Of a DNA stretch of 64,000 bases, positions 23,202 through 45,980 are shown piece after piece (position 1 is the stretch's first letter; each line of letters begins with the position of its first letter). A model generated the notes under the pieces. The model had not been told where the DNA came from and ran no database searches. It saw only the letters and a program-made list of their open reading frames with translations. The stretch lies in contig NZ_LN890655.1 of the NCBI RefSeq assembly GCF_900066015.1, positions 2,706,726 to 2,770,725 on the forward strand, written 5' to 3'. Both the position numbers and the translations under genes were made by a program. Source of the stretch: Candidatus Promineifilum breve. Its GTDB lineage: Bacteria; Chloroflexota; Anaerolineae; Promineifilales; Promineifilaceae.

Positions 23202-23498
23202 TCATTTCTCCTAATTGCCGGCTGCCCCACGGGCGTGGGACGCCGGCACAGCAATATGGCTCCCGGCCAAAATGACGGCGACCGCGGCCGGTCAACAGAC
23301 TCAGCCATTGCCGTTCGCCGGTCGTCAATATTGTTGCATATGCGCCGGGCATTGCTTAGTGTCATCCGTCACCCATTTTTGCGCCGTCTGTCATATGTAA
23401 TGACGCGTGGCGCGTGATGCGTTACGAGTGAAGGGGCGGGGTACGACTGAAAGACGGGGAGGTGCGCGGTTGGCGTTCGTCAGGCGCGCTTCACCTGT
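23202..23498. other. Intergenic region between divergent genes
   Basis: A region of about 300 bp upstream of both the carboxyltransferase (-) and ROK (+) genes. It holds a hairpin at 23217-23247 (GCCGGC..CCCACG..CGTGGG..GCCGGC) right after the minus-strand RBS. No reading frame is convincing. A minus-strand TTGACG near 23328 has no good -10. Confidence 0.5.
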
Positions 23499-23504
23499 TA
23501 TCAT
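23499..23504 (+). promoter_or_regulatory. -10 box of the ROK gene, probable leaderless promoter
   Basis: TATCAT ends 8 nt before the ATG at 23513. No Shine-Dalgarno sequence is visible before this ATG. Confidence 0.45.
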
Positions 23505-23512
23505 TTCGCCCT

Positions 23513-24667
23513 ATGGACGATGTATATCTGGCCCTCGACTTCGGCGGCACAAAGCTGAGCGCGGCGATCTTCAGGAAAGAGGAATCCGCAGATTTCACAG
23601 ATGACGCAGATTATTCCTTCTTCAAATCTGCGAAATCTGCGAAATCTGCGGATTCTACCTCTTATTCTCTCCTCGACTTGCGCCGGGTGGTCACCCCGGC
23701 CGACGCCGACGCGGCCTATGAGCTGGCAGCGATGATCGCCCTGGCCCGTGAACTGCTCGGTGGCCGTCAACCGGCGGCCGTCGGGGTCAGCTTCGGCGGC
23801 CCGGTGGATTTCGCGCGGGGCGTCGTGCGGCTATCCCATCACGTGCGCGGCTGGGAGAACGTGCCGCTGCGCGATGTGCTGGCCGGGGAGTTCGGTTGCC
23901 CGGCGGCGGTCGACAACGACGCCAACGTTGCCGCGCTGGGCGAGCACCGTTTCGGCGCGGGGCGCGGCGTGGACGATCTGCTGTACGTGACGGTCAGCAC
24001 CGGCGTGGGCGGCGGCTGGGTGCTGGGCGGGCGGCCGTGGCGTGGTCACGGCGGCATGGCGGGCGAGATCGGCCACACCGTGGCCAACCCGGCCGGGCCG
24101 TTGTGCCTGTGTGGCAAGCGGGGCTGTGTGGAGCGGCTGGCGTCGGGGCCGTATATGGCGGCGGATTATGGTGGGCGGGTTGGTAACCCGCCGGGGGGCA
24201 GGGGAGAAGACCCTCTCCCTAACCCTCTCCCGGGGGGAGAGGGGACTCCGATCCCCCTCCCTCCGGGAGGGGTTAGGGGAGGGTTCGGGGGAGAAGACCC
24301 TCTCCCTAACCCTCTACCGGGGGGAGAGGGAACCCGGACCTCGCTCCCAGAGGTAGAGGGGACGGCAATGACGGGGCGCGACGTGGCCGAGGCGGCGGCG
24401 GCCGGCGACGAGGTGGCGCGGGCGATCCTGTTGCGCGGGGCGTGGGCGCTGGGGGTGGGGCTGGGCAACGCCGCCAATCTGATCAACCCGCAACGCTTCA
24501 TCCTCGGCGGCGGCGTCACCAAAGCGGGCGAGGCGTGGTGGGCCGAGGTCCGGCGGGCGGCGGCGGCCACGGCCCTGCCCGAAGTGAGCTTCGACATCGT
24601 GCCCGCCGCGCTGGGCGACGACGCGCCGCTGTGGGGGGCAATCGCACTGCTGACCACCGACGACTGA
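23513..24667 (+). CDS. ROK family sugar kinase (glucokinase-like) with repeat insertions
   Basis: A 384-residue ROK protein, expected to phosphorylate glucose or a related sugar with ATP. Seen: phosphate loop LALDFGGTKLSAAI (residues 6-19), catalytic Asp in AVDNDANVAALGEH, STGVGGGWVLGG, HTVANPAGP then the zinc motif CLCGKRGCVE. Two inserts break the usual fold length (about 300-320): residues 24-48 from a palindromic CCGCAGATT repeat, and about 220-285 from GGGCGGGTTGG and CCCTCTCCC repeats (Pro/Gly-rich). The stop codon lies in a third palindrome. The frame is intact, so the protein may still fold. Context: pullulanase gene convergent downstream. Confidence 0.85.
   Translation: MDDVYLALDFGGTKLSAAIFRKEESADFTDDADYSFFKSAKSAKSADSTSYSLLDLRRVVTPADADAAYELAAMIALARELLGGRQPAAVGVSFGGPVDFARGVVRLSHHVRGWENVPLRDVLAGEFGCPAAVDNDANVAALGEHRFGAGRGVDDLLYVTVSTGVGGGWVLGGRPWRGHGGMAGEIGHTVANPAGPLCLCGKRGCVERLASGPYMAADYGGRVGNPPGGRGEDPLPNPLPGGEGTPIPLPPGGVRGGFGGEDPLPNPLPGGEGTRTSLPEVEGTAMTGRDVAEAAAAGDEVARAILLRGAWALGVGLGNAANLINPQRFILGGGVTKAGEAWWAEVRRAAAATALPEVSFDIVPAALGDDAPLWGAIALLTTDD
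23582..23655. repeat. Palindromic GAATCCGCAGATT repeat inside the ROK gene
   Basis: Left arm GAATCCGCAGATTT plus CACAGATGACGCAGATT units; right arm of three AAATCTGCG units ending GGATTC. Outer arms pair perfectly over 14 bp. It is read in frame as Ser/Ala/Asp/Lys-rich residues 24-48. Related copies lie at 12109, 56072 and 62314. Confidence 0.85.
24171..24366. repeat. Composite repeat insertion inside the ROK gene
   Basis: Begins with GGGCGGGTTGGTAACCCGCC (a palindrome also found at 29052 and 47856), then carries two copies of GAAGACCCTCTCCCTAACCC with complementary GGGGTTAGGGGAGGG. It is read in frame as Pro/Gly/Glu-rich peptide containing DPLPNPLPGGEGT twice. Confidence 0.85.
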
Positions 24668-24696
24668 CCACCGACCGTGGTCAGTCGTCGGTGGTC
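24652..24696. terminator. Palindrome between convergent genes, likely bidirectional terminator
   Basis: A perfect 20-bp stem, GACCACCGACGACTGACCAC (24652-24671) and its complement (24677-24696), with a 5-nt loop. It supplies the ROK stop codon (TGA 24665-24667) and ends 6 nt before the pullulanase stop. It belongs to the GGTCAGT repeat family. There is no T-run, so classical termination is not assured. Confidence 0.6.
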
Positions 24697-24701
24697 GGTG
24701 G

Positions 24702-29030
<4,329 letters not shown>

Positions 29031-29051
29031 AACGACTCCTTCCATAATTGT

Positions 29052-29154
29052 GGGGCGGGTTGGTAATCCGCCTCGGCGGTTGTAGGGCGGGTTGGTAACC
29101 CGCCCCCGGCGAATAAACGATATTGAAGAGGGGCGGGTTGCCAACCCGCCCTAC
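29052..29154. repeat. GGGCGGGTTGGTAACCCGCC repeat, three units
   Basis: Three copies of a self-complementary GGCGGGTTGG(T/C)AA(C/T)CCGCC unit, the last one inverted relative to the first, ending CCGCCCTAC. It fills the space between the divergent pullulanase and DUF123 genes. In frame it would extend the pullulanase N-terminus, but the signal peptide and RBS argue against that. Confidence 0.85.
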
Positions 29155-44590: not shown

Positions 44591-44609
44591 TGTCGCGCCA
44601 GGTCAGGAA

Positions 44610-44702
44610 GAATTGGCTACGGATTACCACGGATGTTACGGATAGAAACGGATAAAAAATCCATTTCCATCCGTTTTGTCCGTTTAAATCCGTAGCCATT
44701 TC
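44610..44702. repeat. GGCTACGGATTACC palindromic repeat, copy 1
   Basis: Outer arms AATTGGCTACGGATT / AATCCGTAGCCATT and inner tandem ACGGAT units pairing around AAAAA. Lies between aapJ and aapQ. Confidence 0.85.
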
Positions 44703-44717
44703 TTTATCTTAATTGAA

Positions 44718-44811
44718 GAATTGGCTACGGATTACCACGGATGTTACGGATAGAAACGGATAAAAAATCCGTTTCTATCCGTTTCGTCCGTTTAAATCCG
44801 TAGCCAATTCT
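44718..44811. repeat. GGCTACGGATTACC palindromic repeat, copy 2
   Basis: A near-identical second copy in tandem with copy 1. Inner stem GGATAGAAACGGAT / ATCCGTTTCTATCC is perfect. It ends 5 nt before the aapJ stop (minus strand), so the two hairpins follow aapJ in the transcript and precede the permease genes. Confidence 0.9.
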
Positions 44812-44816
44812 TATTC

Positions 44817-45980
44817 TTATCGGAATGGCGGCGCGTACTGGATACCGCCTTCGGTATACAGCGCGTTCAGGCCGCGCGGCAGATCGAACGGCGTATCGGG
44901 GCCGAGGTTGCGGTTGTAGATCTCGCCGTAGTTGCCGACCTGCTTGACGATCTGGTAGCAGAAGTCGTTGTTCAGGCCCATCGCCACGCCCAGGTCGCCC
45001 GTCTCGCCCATCAGGTTCTGGATGACCGGGTCCTCGCCGCCCAGGAAGGTATCGACGTTGGTCGAATCGATGCCCATCTCTTCGGCGGCGATGGTGCAGA
45101 AGATCGACCACTTGACGATGTCGTACCAGTTGTTATCGCCGTGGCGCACGGCGGGGGCCAGCGGCTCCTTGGACATGGTCTCGTCGAGGATGATGTGGGC
45201 CGCCGGGTCGGCCATCAGGATTTGCTGCGACACCAGGCCCGATTTGTCGGTGGTGAAGCCGTCGCATTGCCCTTCGTCGTAGGCCAGACGGGTCGCGTCG
45301 GCTTCGTCGAAGACGACCGGGGTAAAGTCGATGCCGCGGGCGCGGAAGACGTCGGCCAGATTCTTCTCGGTCGTCGTGCCCGACTGGACGCAGATCGTGC
45401 CGCCGTCCAGCCCCTCCAGGTCCTCAATGCCGCTATCGGCGCGCACCATCATGCCCTGGCCGTCGTAGAAGGTGACCGGCGCGAAGTCGAGGCCCAGCGA
45501 CGTGTCGCGGCTGATCGTCCAGGTGGTGTTGCGGCTGAGCACGTCCACCTCGCCCGATTGCAGGACGGGGAAGCGCTCGTTGGCCGTCGTCGGCCGCACT
45601 TCGATGGCGTTGGGGTCGCCCAGCACCGCCACGGCGAACACCTTGCAGAAGTCGATGTCGAAGCCCTCGAACTCATTGGTGTCGGGGTTGATATAGCCGA
45701 AACCGGGAACGGACTGGTTGCCGGCGCAGCGCAACGTGCCGCGCTCGCGCACTGCGTCGAGGGTGTTGCCGGTGACGACGACCGGCGCTTCGGTTGGCGC
45801 GCCTTCGGCTGCGGCCTCGGTGGGGGCGACGGTCGATTCGGCGACAGCCGGCGCTTCGGTGGCCGCGGCTTCGGCCGCGGCCTCGGTCGGCGTGGTTTCC
45901 TGCGCTGCACCGCCACAGCCCGCCAGGGCCAGGGCCAGCACCGCCAACAATGCCAACAAATAACTCAATCGTGCTTTCAT
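44817..45980 (-). CDS. aapJ: Amino acid ABC transporter substrate-binding lipoprotein
   Basis: A 387-residue lipoprotein: MKARLSYLLALLAVLALALAG then Cys (lipobox ALAGC), an Ala/Thr/Glu/Pro linker to about 70, then the type II amino-acid binding fold. LDAVRERGTLRCAGNQSVPGF, FEGFDIDFCKVFAVAVLGD, SLGLDFAPVTFYDGQGMMVR and GDNNWYDIVKWSIFCTI match AapJ/general L-amino-acid binding proteins. RBS AGGAG. First gene of the operon, separated from the permeases by two repeats that may raise its relative expression. Confidence 0.95.
   Translation of the reverse strand: MKARLSYLLALLAVLALALAGCGGAAQETTPTEAAAEAAATEAPAVAESTVAPTEAAAEGAPTEAPVVVTGNTLDAVRERGTLRCAGNQSVPGFGYINPDTNEFEGFDIDFCKVFAVAVLGDPNAIEVRPTTANERFPVLQSGEVDVLSRNTTWTISRDTSLGLDFAPVTFYDGQGMMVRADSGIEDLEGLDGGTICVQSGTTTEKNLADVFRARGIDFTPVVFDEADATRLAYDEGQCDGFTTDKSGLVSQQILMADPAAHIILDETMSKEPLAPAVRHGDNNWYDIVKWSIFCTIAAEEMGIDSTNVDTFLGGEDPVIQNLMGETGDLGVAMGLNNDFCYQIVKQVGNYGEIYNRNLGPDTPFDLPRGLNALYTEGGIQYAPPFR

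Follow-up and report, generated by a model that had tools for sequence, protein, structure and literature searches.

The window analyzed here is a 64,000-nucleotide stretch of the Candidatus Promineifilum breve genome (NZ_LN890655.1, positions 2,706,726 to 2,770,725), which is 5.03 Mb in size and 99.96% complete. On its forward strand lies an open reading frame of 401 amino acids (23462-24667), for which the ATG at 23513 is the likely start, although the frame is also open from a GTG at 23462. Members of the ROK family carry a zinc motif, CxCGxxGC, and a phosphate-binding motif, DxGGTK. The translation contains both, as CLCGKRGC and DFGGTK, together with an intact DNDAN motif, and it scores 195 bits against the PF00480 profile (cut-off, 22.9). 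Its score against TIGR00744, the profile for ROK glucokinase, is 179 bits, below the curated cut-off of 260, and the short-loop orthologue in relative G006 scores 183 bits. Judged from its sequence, the gene is a putative working gene of the sugar-kinase type. The features of the locus are as follows.

23513-24667, forward strand: ROK-family kinase gene; open frame, PF00480 E 2.6e-57, orthologues in the genus
23582-23655, forward strand: first insertion, an GCAGATTTCACAGAT inverted repeat (GCAGATT palindrome) in the N-terminal loop after KLSAA
24104-24127, forward strand: zinc motif CLCGKRGC, from the translation; conserved in aligned orthologues
24170-24370, forward strand: composite repeat-derived loop of 67 codons, from the translation and the length relative to orthologues
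24174-24192, forward strand: palindromic repeat GGCGGGTTGGTAACCCGCC; 166 strand hits in the genome, control 0
24194-24207, forward strand: remnant of the (GGGGAGCA)n octamer repeat; 3/18 mismatches to the consensus
24206-24283, forward strand: CCCTCTCCC element, copy 1, composed of an CCCTCTCCCTAACCCTCTCCC hairpin half and an GGGAGGGGTTAGGGGAGGG half
24294-24360, forward strand: CCCTCTCCC element, copy 2, 87 nt after copy 1; second half degenerate
24650-24706, no strand assigned: GACCACCGACGACTGACC palindrome (ACTGACC type), two inverted repeats, encoding the final codons and the TGA stop

Downstream of the zinc motif, the frame runs through ERLASGPYMAADY into 67 additional residues and then reaches TGRDVAE, where the orthologue sequence resumes. 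Proline and glycine make up 51% of the residues encoded by 24170-24370, compared to 17% in the remaining protein, and the peptide DPLPNPLPGGEGT is present in two copies. Numbered from the ATG, these are residues 220-286, and they include few tryptic sites. The DNA of the loop contains two direct repeats of 79 nt (24194-24272 and 24281-24359) that are 81% identical. An earlier note on this DNA, made from the letters alone, had described about 65 extra Pro/Gly-rich residues after CLCGKRGC (24171-24366), a peptide occurring twice within them, and a DNA mosaic of a palindrome and repeats; all three descriptions are borne out, the mosaic comprising GGCGGGTTGGTAACCCGCC and the two CCCTCTCCC copies. 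An AlphaFold model built from a four-sequence alignment reached a mean pLDDT of 34 and was set aside, with no fold search based on it, so the position of the loop rests on homology. A scan of a collection of viral contigs for further relatives returned none.

The palindrome, octamer, GCAGATT and CCCTCTCCC repeats are real families and not chance matches. Across the genome, the octamer has 306 strand hits (control 0) and the GCAGATT family of the first insertion occupies 116 places with up to three mismatches (control 0). CCCTCTCCCTAACCCTCTCCC is found at 74 places with up to two mismatches, or 81 with a degenerate core; its reversed-pattern control gives 66, which is not an independent control because the reversed pattern is itself only two mismatches from the element. 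The 74 CCCTCTCCC core places fall into 35 clusters, and the density of octamer tracts is 12-fold higher at distances of up to 150 nt from these clusters (6 in 15.3 kb) than farther away (5 in 157 kb). Within the genus, the core is present in the window genome (G000), in G002, and in G007, which has 30 places; it was not found in G001 or in G003 to G006. The family is spread far beyond the genus, since the viral contig collection has 30 stretches with the exact 21-base core (L105-L134), and genomes G030 and G049 contain it 118 and 39 times, respectively, when up to two mismatches are allowed. The genome encodes three Y1_Tnp genes, and no CCCTCTCCC element lies within about 1.5 kb of any of them on either side.

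We compared the loop among seven species, as a ROK orthologue is present in six of the seven same-genus relatives of the window genome. Counted from the preceding tyrosine, the loops measure 68 residues in the window gene and 54, 22, 22, 22, 18 and 14 residues in the others, and all seven are read through in frame. In solved ROK structures (four shown), roughly 11 to 27 residues separate the aligned blocks at this position; the window gene shares the site of the ROK linker after the zinc motif but fills it with 68 residues derived from repeats. The octamer consensus is matched with at most 3/18 mismatches in six of the seven genus loops, G003 being the exception, compared to 4 to 9 mismatches in all 13 scored loops of other genera and a best match of 3 to 6 mismatches in the rest of the ROK genes. 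The CCCTCTCCC element is present in two of the seven loops, that of the window gene and, in degenerate form, that of G007, in the same frame. The G007 loop aligns to the element with a local score of 67, and none of 500 shuffles scored above 38. This sharing may reflect one old event or two; in a tree of alanyl-tRNA synthetase (AlaRS), G007 groups with G002 and the placement of G000 is ambiguous. Positions 43-162 of the G007 loop have no further copy in that genome by BLAST. A palindrome in the G002 loop, GCAGGCTGTCAGCCTGC, is at most a candidate repeat, having no second copy with up to two mismatches on one strand of 93 kb of G002. Outside the genus, the G034 loop contains TTGCAAAGT, for which repetition is weak: 11 strand hits in G016 (up to three mismatches) and 2 in G034, counting the copy in the loop. 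On the evidence of these alignments, related species appear to hold different repeat mixtures in the same ROK loop.

The loop is one of three sites in the gene at which repeats reside. The first insertion is absent from four of the five other genus orthologues that cover the N-terminal loop; the fifth, in G007, has a different repeat there, with about 60 alignments in the G007 genome (some copies being counted on both strands). At the other end of the gene, the stop codon lies in the GACCACCGACGACTGACC palindrome, and the suggestion that it is repeat-derived was correct. The ROK gene therefore holds four repeat families plus the octamer remnant. The earlier note had counted three repeats taken up with the frame kept: orthologues with shorter or different loops support such uptake in frame, and the count rises to these four families and a remnant. 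Repeat-like DNA, different in each species, is also found just 3' of the ROK stop in G007, G005 and G002.

At least 10 gene loci contain the CCCTCTCCC element in frame. We searched 20 open frames spanning repeats, from 20 loci, against Pfam and obtained a match in 17; L057, L059 and L060 gave none, and the match of L063 is below its family cut-off. In AlaRS, of which this 99.96% complete genome has only one full-length copy, the insert follows the catalytic part and precedes the tRNA_SAD match. It adds about 18 residues directly before YSFELCGG, and no other protein in an alignment of 20 AlaRS sequences has it (fragments L098, L099 and L101 left out). An amidase and a hydantoinase carry the element inside a domain, at a gap relative to solved structures, while in a ThiS-MoaE fusion and a methylmalonyl-CoA mutase it occupies a linker or a domain end; the inter-domain linker of the fusion (L064:2007-2936) is made of CCCTCTCCC copies. 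The element lies in tails or in membrane proteins at L052, L053, L063, L065, L067 and L073, and the copies at L048 and L066 may be upstream of the true start. Several reading frames of the element are in use, giving DPLPNPLPGGEG, GRGLGRG, PSPQPSP, TLSLTLS and PGEGWGEG. L068 and L075, which encode AAA/NB-ARC and TPR proteins of similar sequence, carry arrays of the element in corresponding positions, as would be expected had the repeats been present before the duplication.

Spacings within tandem arrays are multiples of three in 17 of 17 cases in genes, versus 6 of 20 elsewhere. Counted by locus, with both L051 strands taken as one array and two L053 clusters as one locus, the numbers are 10/10 genic and 2/8 elsewhere (Fisher p 0.0015). 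A same-frame Pfam match supports every gene locus except L060 (9 of 10), and restricting the comparison to Pfam-supported genes gives 9/9 versus 2/8 (p 0.0023). The test is supportive and not blind, being partly circular, because “genic” was assigned after the open frames had been viewed.

One reading of the ROK gene is that it is a decaying pseudogene still open by chance, as the earlier note had allowed, naming a second ROK copy as a possible sign. The genome does contain four other ROK matches, one of them over the cut-off for polyphosphate-glucose phosphotransferase, and the GC3 of the insert is 0.63 against 0.84 in the core. However, the paralogue matches listed are distant (43-44% identical), and the window copy shows no relaxed selection. 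Over the conserved core, dN/dS between the ROK gene and five species is 0.14-0.20, in the range of species without the long insert (0.14-0.23 in the other 10 pairs; six of the seven genus members, with G002, a partial contig, left out). With G002 included, as also in the comparison of loop lengths, the ratio is 0.10-0.25 upstream of the insert and 0.13-0.24 downstream (six pairs each). By these ratios, both flanks of the insert are under purifying selection. Decay is not supported, because the core is as constrained as in other pairs and the downstream part as constrained as the upstream part; with the zinc, DFGGTK and DNDAN motifs intact and a long-loop orthologue in G007, we regard it as very improbable.

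The insert might instead have been recruited for a function, for example as a binding or oligomerization arm. G000 and G007 agree in the place and frame of the CCCTCTCCC element, which would fit such a role, as would a loop dN/dS of 0.50, below 1, over 51 aligned codons (same species as for the core), but the alignment of the loop is uncertain. Moreover, between the sister species G007 and G002 the loop varies in both length and content, and hydrophobic residues make up 19% of the loop against a comparison figure of 48%, which leaves recruitment unlikely. Ribosome skipping or RNA removal, by which the stretch would be missing from the mature product, could draw on the strong folding predicted for the loop mRNA (z -5.0). 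Removal would not need spacings in multiples of three, yet all 17 genic spacings conform, and Rfam over 23400-24800 yields no match at gathering scores. We consider this reading very improbable.

We favor the explanation, with a probability of about 0.85, that nonfunctional but translated repeat DNA makes up the insert, having accumulated where a loop of a working enzyme tolerates changes in length. The sequence shows that the loop varies in length across the family, that all repeat parts here are in frame and that the flanks are constrained; translation of the insert is what we infer. Under this explanation, repeats would land or recombine everywhere, often beside one another; landings that shift the frame, create a stop or strike the core would be lost, and those in multiples of three within tolerant loops would survive. 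At the ROK loop the first step was probably an octamer tract, with the other repeats nesting on it later, since the octamer is present in six of the seven genus species. The G003 loop, which lacks the octamer, stands against this account, and the strong folding of the loop mRNA might slow translation. A broader proposal, to which we give slightly less than even odds, is that the genus has standing repeat-sink loops in conserved enzymes, in which octamer tracts draw unrelated repeats, the loop is rewritten repeatedly from the repeat pool, and the lengths of many proteins are set by repeats instead of by point mutation.

Two known systems resemble these repeats. Rickettsia palindromic elements (RPE; Ogata et al. 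2000, 2002, as summarized in PMC10969869) lie in frame in unrelated genes, are translated as fusions and are thought to be compatible with folding; each element has a conserved peptide, that is, one reading frame, according to that summary. Like RPE as described there, the repeats studied here are short palindromes in frame in unrelated protein genes. In contrast to RPE, they belong to another phylum, the CCCTCTCCC element uses several frames, several unrelated families occur in one gene, and the same loop has different repeats in related species. Intragenic REPs of the GTAG and CGTC families, as presented in PMC3733652, also supply stop codons and occur in tRNA synthetase genes. They share with our repeats dimers or clusters of short palindromes in genes, the coding of tens of residues and repeat-supplied stops, but they differ in genes and host, and the CCCTCTCCC element shows no sign of the link to a Y1 transposase (RAYT). 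The ROK loop repeats work like RPE and intragenic REPs, a likeness in behavior that need not mean membership in either group.

Relative to what these sources describe, coding palindromes, repeat-supplied stops and REPs in tRNA synthetase genes are already known; what appears to be new is that unrelated repeats turn over again and again, one nested in another, within a single loop throughout a genus. A full-text literature search for repeats of Promineofilum/Promineifilum, with most subscription journals outside its scope, returned no paper dealing with them by its title or the start of its abstract. Coding palindromes, described from Rickettsia and some REP-rich genomes, are extended by our results to bacteria resembling Promineifilum, and one of them lies within an essential tRNA synthetase. 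The series of differing repeat contents that a single loop shows across the genus makes the origin of new protein segments from selfish DNA testable, and the rule of spacings in multiples of three within genes offers a simple sequence test for translated repeats.

Further repeats occur elsewhere in the window. The GGCGGGTTGG palindrome has three copies (29054-29150) at the 5' end of a long minus-strand open reading frame (24702-29144), whose TTG start may be wrong. A tandem pair at 44607-44819, with a 108-nt unit and 94% matches, is rich in ATCCGT inverted motifs.
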